The position numbers and the translations under genes were made by a program. Below are positions 21-13,853 of a stretch of 41,647 nucleotides of DNA, piece by piece. Source of the stretch: a virus; IMG/VR virus record IMGVR_UViG_3300010430_000155, positions 1-41,647 of that record; one strand, written 5' to 3'. Positions within the stretch are counted from its first letter, which is position 1; each line of letters opens with the position of its first letter. Under the pieces are notes generated by a model, which made no database searches, was not told the DNA's origin, and saw nothing but the letters and a program-made list of their open reading frames with translations.

Positions 21-70
21 CACGTCCGAAAAACATTATTTTCGGTTAATCAGCAACGCACAAGGACGTG
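21..70 (+). promoter_or_regulatory. leader hairpin upstream of first gene
   Basis: The 90 bases before the first gene contain a perfect 7-bp inverted repeat, CCGAAAA (26-32) with TTTTCGG (39-45). It sits inside a wider repeat, CACGTCC (21-27) with GGACGTG (64-70), and the two share bases so cannot both form fully. It lies just ahead of the GGGAG ribosome binding site of the first gene. It may be an attenuator or an RNA processing site; the function is inference. Confidence 0.35.
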
Positions 71-90
71 CATACTGGGAGTATAGAACA

Positions 91-490: not shown

Positions 491-523
491 TCAACTGATA
501 GTCTGTTTCGGGCTATCACTTGA
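491..523 (+). promoter_or_regulatory. conserved intergenic hairpin, copy 1
   Basis: The arms TCAA (491-494) and TTGA (520-523), a C.C mismatch (495/519), and the stem TGATAGTC/GGCTATCA (496-503/511-518) enclose the 7-base loop TGTTTCG. The 3' end is 30 bases from the next ATG (553). The same architecture with an unrelated stem occurs at 1114-1146. It is a likely cis-acting RNA element; its partner is unknown. Confidence 0.6.
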
Positions 524-552
524 GTAACAACACAACATGGGAGTATAGAACA

Positions 553-750
553 ATGAAACATAGAGTATTAAGAATTAGCGATGTATCAACTGGTATACCC
601 TTTGCCGCTATATCAGCAAGAACAAAAGAATCTGTCTTTGTTTATGGCAATCAAAAGCCTATAGATGGAAAGCTGTCTTATGGTCAAGTTAAGCGTGATA
701 CTTGTATCTGCGAAATCTACAATCCTGATTTTGAAGTATCAGCAATATAG
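553..750 (+). CDS. hypothetical early protein, 65 aa
   Basis: This small basic protein starts MKHRVLRISDV. The frame is open further upstream to 520, but the start at 553 is preferred because it is preceded by GGGAGTATAGAACA, identical to the leader of the gene at 91. Its stop lies 10 bases before the next ATG. I see no membrane segment or recognisable domain. A conserved hairpin sits immediately upstream. Confidence 0.6.
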   Translation: MKHRVLRISDVSTGIPFAAISARTKESVFVYGNQKPIDGKLSYGQVKRDTCICEIYNPDFEVSAI

Positions 751-760
751 GGGCTATATC

Positions 761-883
761 ATGACCACATTTCACATTGACAGTCACCACTACCGCAACA
801 TGCGAGGAAACATGAACAAGTATCTTATAGCGGCTCATATTGCACTACTTATTGTTATAGCGCTTATGATGCTGTTTTATTAA
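761..883 (+). CDS. small single-pass membrane protein, 40 aa
   Basis: The hydrophilic, histidine-containing N-terminus (MTTFHIDSHHYRNM) is followed by a hydrophobic C-terminal half, LIAAHIALLIVIALMMLFY, long enough for one membrane span. The ATG at 761 has AGGGG seven bases upstream. An internal ATG at 812 preceded by CGAGGAAAC could give a 23-residue version that is almost all membrane segment. The longer open frame beginning at 665 overlaps the previous gene and lacks support. Function unknown; small holin-like or inhibitor peptides are possible. Confidence 0.5.
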   Translation: MTTFHIDSHHYRNMRGNMNKYLIAAHIALLIVIALMMLFY

Positions 884-902
884 CTTATCGGGAGAATAGA
901 AA

Positions 903-1109
903 ATGCAAACAGAAAACACAATTCCAAATCAAGCTGTACAGGGCGACATTGTGCATATACTTGATCTAGCAAAGTTTAAAAAACAATACCGCGGCGCTAC
1001 TGCTGAGATCATGAGATGGCACCATGACAATGTATACACTGCTCTAGCCAATGGTGAAACTATAACTATTACAGGTTATGAATTTGTCACTACATACCGC
1101 AATTATTAA
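903..1109 (+). CDS. hypothetical early protein, 68 aa
   Basis: This protein begins MQTENTIPNQAVQGDIVHIL and is preceded by CGGGAGAATAGAAA, the block's typical strong ribosome binding site. The composition is that of a small soluble protein with no cysteines. No domain is recognised. It is followed by the second copy of the conserved hairpin. Confidence 0.6.
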   Translation: MQTENTIPNQAVQGDIVHILDLAKFKKQYRGATAEIMRWHHDNVYTALANGETITITGYEFVTTYRNY

Positions 1110-1113
1110 TCAT

Positions 1114-1146
1114 TCAACCTTGTCTCTGTATCAGGGGCAAGCTTGA
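1114..1146 (+). promoter_or_regulatory. conserved intergenic hairpin, copy 2
   Basis: The arms TCAA (1114-1117) and TTGA (1143-1146), a C.C mismatch (1118/1142), and the 8-bp stem CTTGTCTC/GGGGCAAG (with G-T pairs) enclose the 7-base loop TGTATCA. It ends 30 bases before the ATG at 1176, the same spacing as copy 1. The stem bases differ almost throughout from copy 1 while pairing is kept. Confidence 0.6.
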
Positions 1147-1175
1147 GCAATTAAGCTTAAACGGGAGTAGAAATA

Positions 1176-1415
1176 ATGAAAATATATGAAAATGTTATGA
1201 GTATAGAAAAAGCCGGTAAATACTTAGTTCTTGAATTCTATAGAAATAGCAATCCGCTTGATAATTACTTTATTGAGCCACCGGATAATGTGTTTTTAGT
1301 TAAAAGAAAGTCTAATATTGATGATAGTTATTTTTATGATGTTTATAAAGATAACAAACTACATTGCTCGGCAATGGGTAAAGAAATGATTAAAGACTTT
1401 TTTACTAATCTATAA
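1176..1415 (+). CDS. hypothetical early protein, 79 aa
   Basis: The start follows CGGGAGTAGAAATA. The product is small and soluble, rich in Asn, Tyr and Lys, with a central segment DNVFLVKRKSN. It appears more AT-rich than its neighbours. I do not recognise it and see no motif that indicates a role. Confidence 0.55.
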   Translation: MKIYENVMSIEKAGKYLVLEFYRNSNPLDNYFIEPPDNVFLVKRKSNIDDSYFYDVYKDNKLHCSAMGKEMIKDFFTNL

Positions 1416-1422
1416 CAGCAAT

Positions 1423-1449
1423 ATCAGCTCATTCTTATAGTGGGCTGAT
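1423..1449 (+). promoter_or_regulatory. intergenic hairpin
   Basis: A 9-bp stem, ATCAGCTCA (1423-1431) with TGGGCTGAT (1441-1449, one G-T pair), has a 9-base loop. It lies between two early genes, 42 bases before the next ATG, and has no T-run, so it is not an obvious terminator. It lacks the TCAAC/CTTGA flanks of the two conserved hairpins. Confidence 0.45.
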
Positions 1450-1490
1450 GAGGCTGAATAAACAGTCTTATATCCTAGGGGGATAGATAC

Positions 1491-2263: not shown

Positions 2264-2282
2264 TCAACTGCCACGGATGGCA
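2264..2282 (+). promoter_or_regulatory. short intergenic hairpin
   Basis: TCAAC (2264-2268) is followed by TGCCA, a 4-base loop CGGA... and TGGCA. It shares the 5' flank TCAAC with the two conserved hairpins, but the 3' CTTGA flank and the spacing are missing. It could be a degenerate relative; this is a weak claim. Confidence 0.3.
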
Positions 2283-2955: not shown

Positions 2956-3001
2956 AACCCTATCGCGCCGCCCTTCCGGGCTAGGTTGGGCGGCTAGGGT
3001 T
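2956..3001. terminator. strong hairpin terminator, probably two-way
   Basis: AACCCTA (2956-2962) pairs with TAGGGTT (2995-3001), and GCCGCCC (2967-2973) pairs with GGGCGGC (2988-2994). This makes a 14-bp stem with a 4-base bulge, followed on the plus strand by TTTT. On the minus strand the flank is TTATTT. It ends the left plus-strand genes and lies about 50-95 bases downstream of the minus-strand promoter after Q, where lambda has tR'. Confidence 0.8.
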
Positions 3002-3055
3002 TTCTATGGGAGATAGAAACTATATGTTCGGGGGCAGAATAAACAGTCTAGGGAT

Positions 3056-4420: not shown

Positions 4421-5007
4421 ATCTCCCCCTTTAAATATTTAAGTTGCTCACGATAATACTGCTTAATCTCAATTAAATCATCAATCACCCAATTCTGTGC
4501 TCCATGTGGACCATCCAACCAGTCAACCATATCCTGACCTATTTTCTTTATCAGATTCTCCTTATATTGTTGTGAAACTGTATGGTTCTTTTTTGCATAT
4601 TTACCTGATCCGCCATTACATGATTTGCATTGCTTGTGGATATTCATAGGATGAAATCTTAATTCTGGAAACGCCCCCTTCGACTTATAATGTCCAGCAT
4701 CCCACTTGCCCCCTGTATACCTTTCCTTTATCTCCCAGTCATATCTACCACAGCTAATACATGGATCATCCCTGTCTCTGGTTCGTATATAGGTATGGCA
4801 TGGCGTCTTGGCCTCCTCTATCCTGTCAGAGCGTGTTTTCAGTGCTTCCTTGCGTCTACGGGTATCTTTCCTCCTTTCCTTAGCCCTGCACCCCTCTGCC
4901 TTGGCCTGATCGGCCTTTACAAGCTCTATGGCACAGCCTGGGGAGCATACTTTCTGTAAACTGTTGAAGGGTGCGTATTCTGTTTTACAGATACGGCATT
5001 TCTTCAC
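4417..5007 (-). CDS. ninG: NinG/Rap recombination protein
   Basis: This is a 196-residue member of the phage lambda NinG (Rap) family, a structure-specific endonuclease that acts on recombination intermediates in RecA/phage recombination. Seen in sequence: an N-terminal zinc finger (CRIC at 4-7; C21 and C25), a long basic coiled stretch rich in Lys/Arg (about 35-65), then C83/C86, GHY with H106, and C127/C130 in KQCKSCNGGSGK, matching the family's HNH-like core. Length is normal. It overlaps genes on both sides by 4 bases. With the Rad52-like protein at 13152 it suggests a full phage recombination set. Assignment is secure. Confidence 0.93.
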   Translation of the reverse strand: MKKCRICKTEYAPFNSLQKVCSPGCAIELVKADQAKAEGCRAKERRKDTRRRKEALKTRSDRIEEAKTPCHTYIRTRDRDDPCISCGRYDWEIKERYTGGKWDAGHYKSKGAFPELRFHPMNIHKQCKSCNGGSGKYAKKNHTVSQQYKENLIKKIGQDMVDWLDGPHGAQNWVIDDLIEIKQYYREQLKYLKGEI

Positions 5008-7317: not shown

Positions 7318-7866
7318 TCATAAGTCATATTCCCATCTGATTTTGTCTCCGTCTGCAGGACAGTCTGCGCGTTTTCTTTGATCACTCGTCCACGCCTGCT
7401 TCCCACCCTTTCGATGACCACCAACAACCCACCCAGAAGCTTTGTAGATAGTTCCGTGATGCACATTAGTATCTTGATATGATATTAACTTAATGATTTC
7501 TGGCATTGTTTTCTTAATATCTAGTCGCATTAATTTAATTAACCTTGATGCAGTATTCTTGGGGGCATCATCTGCAATCGCCATACGCCTAAGTTCATAG
7601 TAACCGCGACCATTAAACCCTCTTGCTATTGGATTTCCCCAAATAGAACAGGAATAGTATTTGTTTGCAAAAAATGCCCCGTAAGCAATACAACCCGCTG
7701 GGTTGGTTAGTCTAGGCAATCTTGAATGCCACAGCTCATTAAGCAATAAAGCATCATTTATATTCATCCTTGATAATTCTAACTGGAGCGGGGAGATTGG
7801 GATTGCACCATCACCTTCCTCTTGGAATAGAGGGTGTACTACTCTTATACTATCCCCGCTAATCAT
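7318..7866 (-). CDS. GNAT-fold acyltransferase, Mom-like DNA modification candidate
   Basis: Seen in this 182-residue product: CIAYGAFFANKYYSCSIWG (strands of a GNAT core), GYYELRRMAI followed by DDAPKNTASRLI (the acyl-CoA-binding region), then IKLISYQDTNVHHGTIYKAS and GW. This order is that of phage Mu Mom-related acyltransferases, which add a carbamoylmethyl-type group to adenine to block restriction. Many phages carry such genes. I place it by motif order; DNA as the substrate is inference, and another small-molecule acyltransferase is possible. The ATG at 7866 overlaps the upstream stop (ATGATTAG); an in-frame GTG at 7881 is an alternative. Confidence 0.65.
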   Translation of the reverse strand: MISGDSIRVVHPLFQEEGDGAIPISPLQLELSRMNINDALLLNELWHSRLPRLTNPAGCIAYGAFFANKYYSCSIWGNPIARGFNGRGYYELRRMAIADDAPKNTASRLIKLMRLDIKKTMPEIIKLISYQDTNVHHGTIYKASGWVVGGHRKGGKQAWTSDQRKRADCPADGDKIRWEYDL

Positions 7867-8050
7867 TTTTAATATCAACACCTATATCCAGAGTATTTAT
7901 CCATCTTTCATGACATTTTGGGCATTCTAAGATTCTTCCATACCTTATAGAGCCTGCGTTTTCTTCAAAATCATTGGGGCAATTAGGGCATAAAATAATA
8001 ATAGCCTCTCGTACCTCTGTCTCTATTTCTTCTAATTGGTTAGTCATCAT
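7859..8050 (-). CDS. zinc-ribbon protein, 63-64 aa
   Basis: MMTNQLEEIETEVREAI is followed by CPNC (about residues 26-29) and CPKC (about 48-51), a two-knuckle zinc ribbon. The frame is open further upstream, but those codons overlap the end of the preceding gene. Two adjacent ATGs at 8050 and 8047 make better starts. It sits directly before the Mom-like gene and overlaps it by 8 bases. A DNA or nucleic-acid partner role is plausible but unproven. Confidence 0.6.
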   Translation of the reverse strand: MMTNQLEEIETEVREAIIILCPNCPNDFEENAGSIRYGRILECPKCHERWINTLDIGVDIKND

Positions 8051-10437: not shown

Positions 10438-11045
10438 AAGAGTTTTTCAGTTTTAAGGTAAGACCTGCATACATATGGGTACTGACTACAGCAATTGTAT
10501 TGCTGGTAGTTTCAACCCTTACCGGCTGTAATGTTGAGGAAACAGTAGAAACTAGGGACGCGAAACGGGTACAGCAACAACAAGGGCAATATGAGAAAGG
10601 CCAGCCCTTACCTGCTTTTGATTGGTCACTTGAACGTGATTTAGTCATTCAGCTATACAGAGTAAGAAATCAGAAGGCGGCTACACATAGCGTGTGGCGC
10701 TCTGATCGTGGATGGATAGAGGGCGATTGCCCCTCTTATGGATACGGCATTCCATATGATACGAGCCTGACAAATCCACTAGCTCCGATTAATTATGTAT
10801 ATGAGGCTATTGGGGCGGGGCGAAACCAGACAAGTCATGTAGTTGAGCAGGCAGAGCCTAATGGTGTATTTGCCAGCAAGAATACGGCAGCAACGTGGGT
10901 TATGTGTTTAGGGCAAAGTGGGAGTGTAGAGCCAGTTTATGTGGAAACAAAAGTAACTGTATATCCCGGCCCTGTAATCGTTGATTACGAGACAAACCGA
11001 GTCAAGCGCAGTGGGGCTGCTACCGTTTTGATAAACACTCAGTAA
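10434..11045 (+). CDS. phage-encoded lipoprotein, 203 aa
   Basis: The N-terminus is a lipoprotein signal: a hydrophobic stretch (about residues 13-28) and the lipobox LTGC with C32, then a Gln-rich linker. The mature part contains PAFDWSLERDLVIQLYRVRN, THSVWRSDRG and EQAEPNGVFASKNTAATW, which I recall as a family of phage lipoproteins of unknown job. The product should sit in the inner or outer membrane facing the periplasm. It shares an operon with the membrane protein before it. A possible structured RNA region follows. Confidence 0.75.
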   Translation: MKEFFSFKVRPAYIWVLTTAIVLLVVSTLTGCNVEETVETRDAKRVQQQQGQYEKGQPLPAFDWSLERDLVIQLYRVRNQKAATHSVWRSDRGWIEGDCPSYGYGIPYDTSLTNPLAPINYVYEAIGAGRNQTSHVVEQAEPNGVFASKNTAATWVMCLGQSGSVEPVYVETKVTVYPGPVIVDYETNRVKRSGAATVLINTQ

Positions 11046-11098
11046 CCAAAGGAGGTGATAAGTGAGTTTAGTAGGACAATTGCACAGGGACGTGACTA

Positions 11099-11397
11099 AC
11101 AGATAGCAACATCTGTATGAGCATCGGCAACACGGTAAGACTAGCTAACTTGCCGCACTGTGACGCAAAAGACCTTGAACAGTACCCTACGATGTTGCCA
11201 GGGGTGGGACGAGGAAAACTGTAGGACTTGGAGGGGTTGCTCCCTCCGGTCCGGCTAGAATTATGGTGAGGCGGCGTGGAAAGCAGACACGCTTGCGAGG
11301 AAGTGGGTTAGTAGAGCTAGGGCTATGCCAGATTGTTCCTGTACCCGCTCAGGACATGGGCTACTTAGTGAGCAGGATTAGCGCCCTGCCCTCACCA
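11099..11397 (+). ncRNA. possible structured RNA in a 374-base gene-free stretch
   Basis: 11046-11419 has no convincing gene and looks more GC-rich than its flanks. Visible pairings: ACAGAT/ATCTGT (11099-11104/11111-11116), CGGCAA/TTGCCG (11125-11130/11150-11155), and GGAC and GGAGGG with CCCTCC and GTCC (11224-11252). Others are GCGTG/CACGC (11274-11292), TCCTG/CAGGA (11337-11354) and an 8-bp outer pair TGGTGAGG/CCTCACCA (11264-11271/11390-11397). GATGTTGCC (11191-11199) could instead pair with either of two upstream segments. A near-perfect ribosome binding site (AAAGGAGGTGATAA) with a 13-codon GTG frame precedes it at 11048-11103. Some of these pairs could arise by chance. Confidence 0.4.
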
Positions 11398-13151: not shown

Positions 13152-13853
13152 ATGAATATTGAAGAACTAGACAAACCTCTAGACAGGGCTGTAGTAAAGA
13201 CACGCTCTAAAGGTAACTTTGACCTTTCATATATACAGGGATGGTGGGCTATTTCAGAAGCAAACCGGATATTTGGCTTTGATGGATGGGAAAGAGAAAC
13301 CGTGTACTGTAAAGAAGTCTGCAGGTATGAAACCAGCAACAATAAGCACAAGGTTGGTTATGAAGCGATGGTTAAGATTCATGTATTTGATGACGAGCAA
13401 GGGTTGTCTGTTGCCAGAGAGGGCACAGGACACGGTTCTGGCATCGCTAACGACCTTTTTGATGCTATTGAAGGAGCAGCTAAGGAAGCTGAAACAGACG
13501 CCATGAAACGCGCTCTAATCACCTTTGGTAACCCCTTTGGACTCGCTCTCTATGATAAGGAGCAAAAGAACGTACAGATAGCCCCTGAGCCTGTAGACCC
13601 CAAGAAAGTAGCCACGGCTATCGAGTTCTTCAGGGAGCAGATAGATATTGATCAGATTGAAGAAACATTCGATATCGTACAGGCAGCATGGAATAGATTG
13701 ACCAATGACGAGCAAATCGCTGTAAACACAGGGTTAAAGCCCCTGACTTCAGGCAGGAAGAAATACTCCACTATCCTGAAAGAATACCTGAACTATGTTC
13801 ATACAAAAGACCCTGACTTTTTTGATGCAAACTTGCTGCATGGCGATAAGTAA
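13152..13853 (+). CDS. Rad52-type single-strand DNA annealing protein
   Basis: Rad52/Sak-like proteins anneal complementary single strands during phage recombination. Seen in the 233 residues: SYIQGWWAISEANRIFGFDG (about 27-46), a beta-sheet region with YEAMVKIHVFD, the GTGHG loop (about 92-96) and KEAETDAMKRALITFGNPFG (about 111-130) followed by LALYDK, all hallmarks of the Rad52/Rad22 core. The C-terminal 80 residues are a helical tail of the kind that often binds SSB. It starts after GGAGAGATAGA. It likely works with NinG; no partner exonuclease is seen in the window. Confidence 0.9.
   Translation: MNIEELDKPLDRAVVKTRSKGNFDLSYIQGWWAISEANRIFGFDGWERETVYCKEVCRYETSNNKHKVGYEAMVKIHVFDDEQGLSVAREGTGHGSGIANDLFDAIEGAAKEAETDAMKRALITFGNPFGLALYDKEQKNVQIAPEPVDPKKVATAIEFFREQIDIDQIEETFDIVQAAWNRLTNDEQIAVNTGLKPLTSGRKKYSTILKEYLNYVHTKDPDFFDANLLHGDK

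Follow-up and report, generated by a model that had tools for sequence, protein, structure and literature searches.

Phage T7 carries RNase III sites between its early genes, and in the nut sites of lambdoid phages the boxB element presents a conserved loop on a stem of variable sequence. Another kind of repeated element, the promoter early stem-loops (PeSLs) of T4-like phages, was reportedly described by Arbiol in 2010 and by Comeau in 2014. PeSLs are stem-loop modules situated between shuffled early genes (PMC4503421). The window analysed in this work, a stretch of 41,647 nucleotides covering positions 1 to 41,647 of the virus record IMGVR_UViG_3300010430_000155, contains two copies of a hairpin, hereafter hairpin A, and what is new here is that this hairpin recurs nearly unchanged between unrelated genes in related uncultured phages. 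As with the PeSLs, the stem-loops are repeated in the intergenic spaces of small early genes and are retained while the genes shuffle. Unlike PeSLs, hairpin A has neither a promoter above chance nor a terminator U-tract, the hairpin is exchanged independently of the ribosome-binding part, and the phage that carries it is of the P22-like-portal type, with no relationship to T4 seen. Since a promoter and a terminator, from which that family takes its name, were both looked for and not found, we do not class hairpin A as a PeSL. Promoter-like matches number 10 in the window, compared with 9.9 in shuffled sequence; none falls within positions 487-552, and a weak match (9/12) at 1084-1113 overlaps only the end of the upstream gene.

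Both copies lie on the plus strand, copy 1 at positions 484-530 (core 491-523) and copy 2 at positions 1107-1153 (core 1114-1146), and their cores read TCAAC-TGATAGTC-TGTTTCG-GGCTATCA-CTTGA and TCAAC-CTTGTCTC-TGTATCA-GGGGCAAG-CTTGA, respectively. Flanks, apex, C.C mismatch and geometry are common to the two, and at six consecutive stem pairs both sides differ between the copies with pairing retained. The letters thus agree with the original prediction, made from this DNA alone, as to the coordinates, the flanks, the mismatch and the differing yet paired stems. The 8-bp stem and 7-base loop that it described have to be redrawn: folding adds two further pairs and, because the ends of the supposed 7-base loop pair too, the inner stem is 10 bp long and is capped by a triloop (UUU in copy 1, UAU in copy 2; CAU also occurs among the copies of hairpin A). 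On the other side of the C.C mismatch, the 5-bp outer stem of copy 1 is extended by two U-A pairs to 7 bp. In copy 2, as in its relatives in the phage records L029 and L135, the 5-bp stem is followed outwards by a CA/CA 2x2 internal loop and then by an outermost UAAU/AUUA helix (UGAU in L029), in which the stop codon of the preceding gene lies. Hairpin A begins at or just past a stop codon (in copy 1, 4 nt past the one at 484-486), and some 15 nt at least separate its end from the next Shine-Dalgarno sequence. Downstream of copy 1 lies the ribosome-binding module TGGGAGTATAGAACAATG (538-555, plus strand), which is found in identical form at 76-93 and in L135, and downstream of copy 2 a GGGAG Shine-Dalgarno sequence with its ATG (1163-1178, plus strand). 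The distance from hairpin to ATG, which had been given as exactly 30 bases, is 29 bases in both window copies; it is 30 in L029 and 34 in L135, so that the spacing is not fixed.

A scan of every plus-strand position of the window yielded three fully paired (10/10) sites with a 10-bp stem and triloop, compared with a mean of 2.58 in shuffled windows. At two of these sites the 5-base flanks are the same on either side, ten bases in all, and a flank-sharing, fully paired couple was present in 0 of 100 dinucleotide shuffles. When pairs were counted over the distinct hairpin A sequences, 100% were paired, six of the pairs differing on either side, compared with 31-51% for slid partners, and the extended structure was 96% paired against 25-50%. 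Unrelated database sequences that match ATTCAAC-N23-CTTGAGYAA (70 distinct) form at most 8 of the 10 pairs, as do the viral matches of a relaxed pattern, and the 19 bacterial genome matches form at most 7. It is therefore well supported that hairpin A is a selected RNA structure, as the original prediction had concluded from covariation: the six double changes remain paired, the controls score lower and the structure is kept in other phages. What has to be tempered is the weight of the covariation itself, which amounts to one independent comparison because all six double changes separate the lineage of copy 1 from copy 2 and its relatives. This single stem comparison, together with the small number of related contigs, would also accommodate two chance or inherited look-alikes devoid of function and spread passively by recombination, an explanation that we consider improbable given that pairing has outlasted six double changes and that neither shuffles nor database controls reproduce the pattern.

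Among the matches listed, an exact copy of the second hairpin occurs in L029 (IMGVR 3300005590_000092), and copies with a single loop change occur in L135 (3300005601_000020), L139 (3300005590_000025) and L230 (3300027790_000363), three records that are virtually the same sequence. Around the hairpin, 52-77 nt are 90-98% identical between the window and L029 and L135/L139/L230; the stretch common to copy 2 and L135, for instance, is 1106-1157, at 98% identity. Outside the modules, no similarity to the window was detected in the L029 record, and just scattered protein similarity in the L139 record. At its very start the window matches the end of an L029 gene without a difference over 50 bases, and the identity breaks off at the stop codon of that gene. 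In four settings, the two window copies and two others, hairpin A is placed between a stop codon and a Shine-Dalgarno sequence, and the flanking genes on both sides have no mutual protein similarity. In L135 it is joined to a ribosome-binding module that in the window sits 3' of a different hairpin (hairpin E, described below).

The search for relatives with a covariance model, proposed along with the original prediction, did yield further copies, although these belong to the same phage group and bring no new compensatory changes. Over the records examined, the model recovered the copies in L029 and L135/L139/L230 and no others, and all further copies from pattern and covariance model searches carry the stem of copy 2 with at most one loop change. 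In scans for a sequence pattern, run on viral contigs with the stem left free and on bacterial genomes, full pairing was, among the matches listed, confined to the same phage group. BLASTN searches with the region and with single modules against 50,697 phage records gave no match beyond chance, and no Rfam family matched hairpin A, either at the gathering score or at E values up to 5. The best outsider, in L267, forms 7 of 10 pairs (28.7 bits, E 0.008 in its genome), and we treat it as a chance match because its selection by sequence pattern already provides most of the score; a covariance model search found no copy in 369 genomes belonging to the same class as that of L267, which is weak evidence as the filters were stricter. 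Hairpin A is real, constrained in structure and portable; it belongs to a small set of uncultured phages, and its function we infer.

Near-identical copies at different loci, with one hairpin per gene in places, are also what a mobile or recombination palindrome acting at the DNA level (integron attC-like or MITE-like) would leave, the RNA pairing then being incidental. Integron attC sites have the ends RYYYAAC ... GTTRRRY and are cleaved at G^TT. The left end of hairpin A, ATTCAAC, matches this pattern, but its right end is CTTGAGY, every copy lacking the G of the GTT core at which cleavage takes place, and we accordingly rejected hairpin A as an integron attC site. It is also far smaller than attC, it always occurs in a single orientation between stop codon and ribosome-binding site, and no recombinase was recognised among the proteins scanned. 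A DNA-level element of this kind thus has little prospect of being the right explanation.

The reading that we favour, at an even chance of being correct, is that hairpin A is an exchangeable intercistronic RNA module, acting in processing, stability or insulation, and at the same time a junction for gene shuffling; its biochemical role we infer. Hairpin A would be a structural module of the mRNA from an early-type block of small phage genes, where it would mark the boundary between cistrons as a site of processing, stability or insulation. Its interrupted duplex of 17-21 bp, counted with mismatches, could be cut by RNase III-like enzymes or could present a barrier to exonucleases or to ribosome run-through, although it is shorter than classic RNase III sites. 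Sites that RNase III processes between cistrons are hairpins whose interrupted duplex spans about two turns. By analogy, hairpin A may function as do the RNase III sites that separate T7 genes, which are likewise mismatched hairpins in a polycistronic early mRNA, built on the same plan with differing stems. The comparison has its differences: the duplex of hairpin A is shorter, a C.C mismatch replaces the T7 internal loop, and copies of hairpin A are found in several phages, with unrelated genes on either side. Since modules of this kind turn up repeatedly in the gene block and in other phages, they would also provide short stretches of homology as junctions for the gain, loss or exchange of genes, plausibly with the aid of the phage's own Rad52-type annealing protein. 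Such a protein is encoded at 13152-13853 according to a protein scan, and recombination at homologies of about 50 nt through it is plausible, its presence being no proof. The sharing of modules could instead reflect passive hitch-hiking on recombination rather than function.

The conserved loop region and the stem whose sequence may vary recall boxB, and a hairpin whose apex is conserved, lying within an operon made up of small genes of early type, would be compatible with an antitermination (nut/put-like) element or an intrinsic terminator. Unlike boxB, however, hairpin A lacks a boxA-like partner, lies outside the leader, at inner junctions, and has a longer, interrupted stem. The best boxA candidates in the 100 nt upstream of each copy match at 5-6 of 9 positions, too few to count as boxA-like; no U-run follows the stem, and terminator prediction found no terminator-like site at either copy. 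Antitermination, one of the roles raised in the original prediction, gains no support from these observations, and we regard this whole class of explanation as highly improbable. Processing and protein binding, which had been raised alongside it, are possible roles for hairpin A.

Hairpin A might also be the binding site of a particular RNA-binding protein, of phage or host origin, through which translation of the next gene is controlled. In favour of this, the apex (UCUG-NNU-CRGG) and the base (UUCAA-C / C-UUGAG) are conserved in sequence, the stem being free to vary in its middle, and two neighbouring modules, B and C, fit CsrA sites. The strong conservation of individual bases may, on the other hand, just reflect recent transfer, the start codon does not lie at a constant distance (29, 29, 30 and 34 nt), the Shine-Dalgarno sequence falls outside the hairpin, and no candidate RNA-binding protein for hairpin A was identified among the early proteins scanned. 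We consider such a site unlikely. In particular, hairpin A is ruled out as a CsrA/RsmA site, because it has a triloop without GGA on a long stem.

CsrA/RsmA sites follow a consensus of an ANGGAN hexaloop on a short stem just upstream of the Shine-Dalgarno sequence (PMC7652899). Modules B and C match it, each with the hexaloop on a 4-bp stem just upstream of the Shine-Dalgarno sequence, as in glgC (PMC7652899). The hairpin of module B (GCAC-AAGGAC-GTGC, 58-71, plus strand) lies 5' of the gene at 91-486, the module reading CAACGCACAAGGACGTGC and then GGGAGTATAGAACAATG. Module C, TCAACTGCCACGGATGGCAT, has the hairpin TGCC-ACGGAT-GGCA (2269-2282, plus strand) and is also present in L135 (from 9587 on), between other genes. 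The hairpin at 2264-2282, previously taken for a loose relative of hairpin A, is this separate conserved module with its CsrA-type loop, and the one at 1423-1449 belongs to another strong hairpin, hairpin E (1416-1456, plus strand; z -4.0), with a 4-bp outer stem, a 2x2 internal loop and a 12-bp inner stem. The ribosome-binding module of hairpin E (1471-1496, 3' of it) is the one that follows hairpin A in L135. Modules B and C and the ribosome-binding modules are shared by the same phages and shuffled as hairpin A is, and module B precedes different genes in several phage lineages, beyond this phage group. Its hairpin is found just 5' of start codons in L029 (about 10930), L135 (about 6867) and L254-L260 (twice in L258), and a further hairpin, GCCAC-AAGGAT-GTGGC, is located at 2563 in L258. 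It is possible that module B hairpins capture host CsrA or are controlled by it; no RegB, CsrA or Hfq-type protein was found among the proteins scanned, which took in some but not all of the small frames.

The gene block is closed by a hairpin at 2956-3001 (plus strand), of which L139 keeps the base, with an inner stem that has been replaced and is nevertheless paired. This hairpin is followed by the ribosome-binding-like sequence GGGAGATAGAAA with no clear gene after it, both in the window (2956-3022) and in L139 (about 4500-4565, minus strand), and GGGAGATAGAAA is perhaps the scar of a gene loss. A 40-residue protein whose tail is hydrophobic is encoded once in the window (757-884) and twice in L135 (7132-7262 and 8072-8200), its gene standing before different genes. 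A perfect FNR-type box, TTGATCTAAATCAA, lies in the conserved region that precedes the early gene block in L029 (10651-10664) and L135 (6612-6625); the window begins downstream of the corresponding place. Farther along the window, 7318-7881 (minus strand) encodes a member of the Mom family (Pfam PF25680, E 8e-15), DNA-modification proteins known from phage Mu. A gap of about 217 nt that is rich in G+C and for which no plus-strand gene is listed (11046-11262) contains a third CsrA-like hairpin (11082-11096) together with inverted repeats, and could be a non-coding RNA.

The strong cleavage consensus of T4 RegB is GGAGRAYARAA (PMC3014915). Leaders that match or nearly match it are located at 78, 540 and 891 in the window, at 10730, 11144 and 11519 in L029, and at 6890-8712 in L135, with perfect matches at 891 in the window and 8712 in L135; all but one of the matches in the window fall inside this gene block. 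As a tentative and rather doubtful extension, the early genes may be separated by a small set of interchangeable RNA modules that form a modular post-transcriptional code, with a different factor, from host or phage, recognising each module. Hairpin A, the CsrA-type modules B and C, hairpin E and the RegB-like GGAG leaders, swapped as units, would be the members of this code, an assignment that is equally speculative.

In phage mosaics one can seldom see what allows genes to be swapped precisely at their boundaries. In the present case the constant part is a short RNA hairpin module and the variable part the genes, outside the T4-like group in which such cassettes were described, and hairpin A provides a defined sequence for studying how new genes are fitted into the mRNA of a phage operon. 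If the modular code were true, a newly acquired gene would at once come under the control of the phage.
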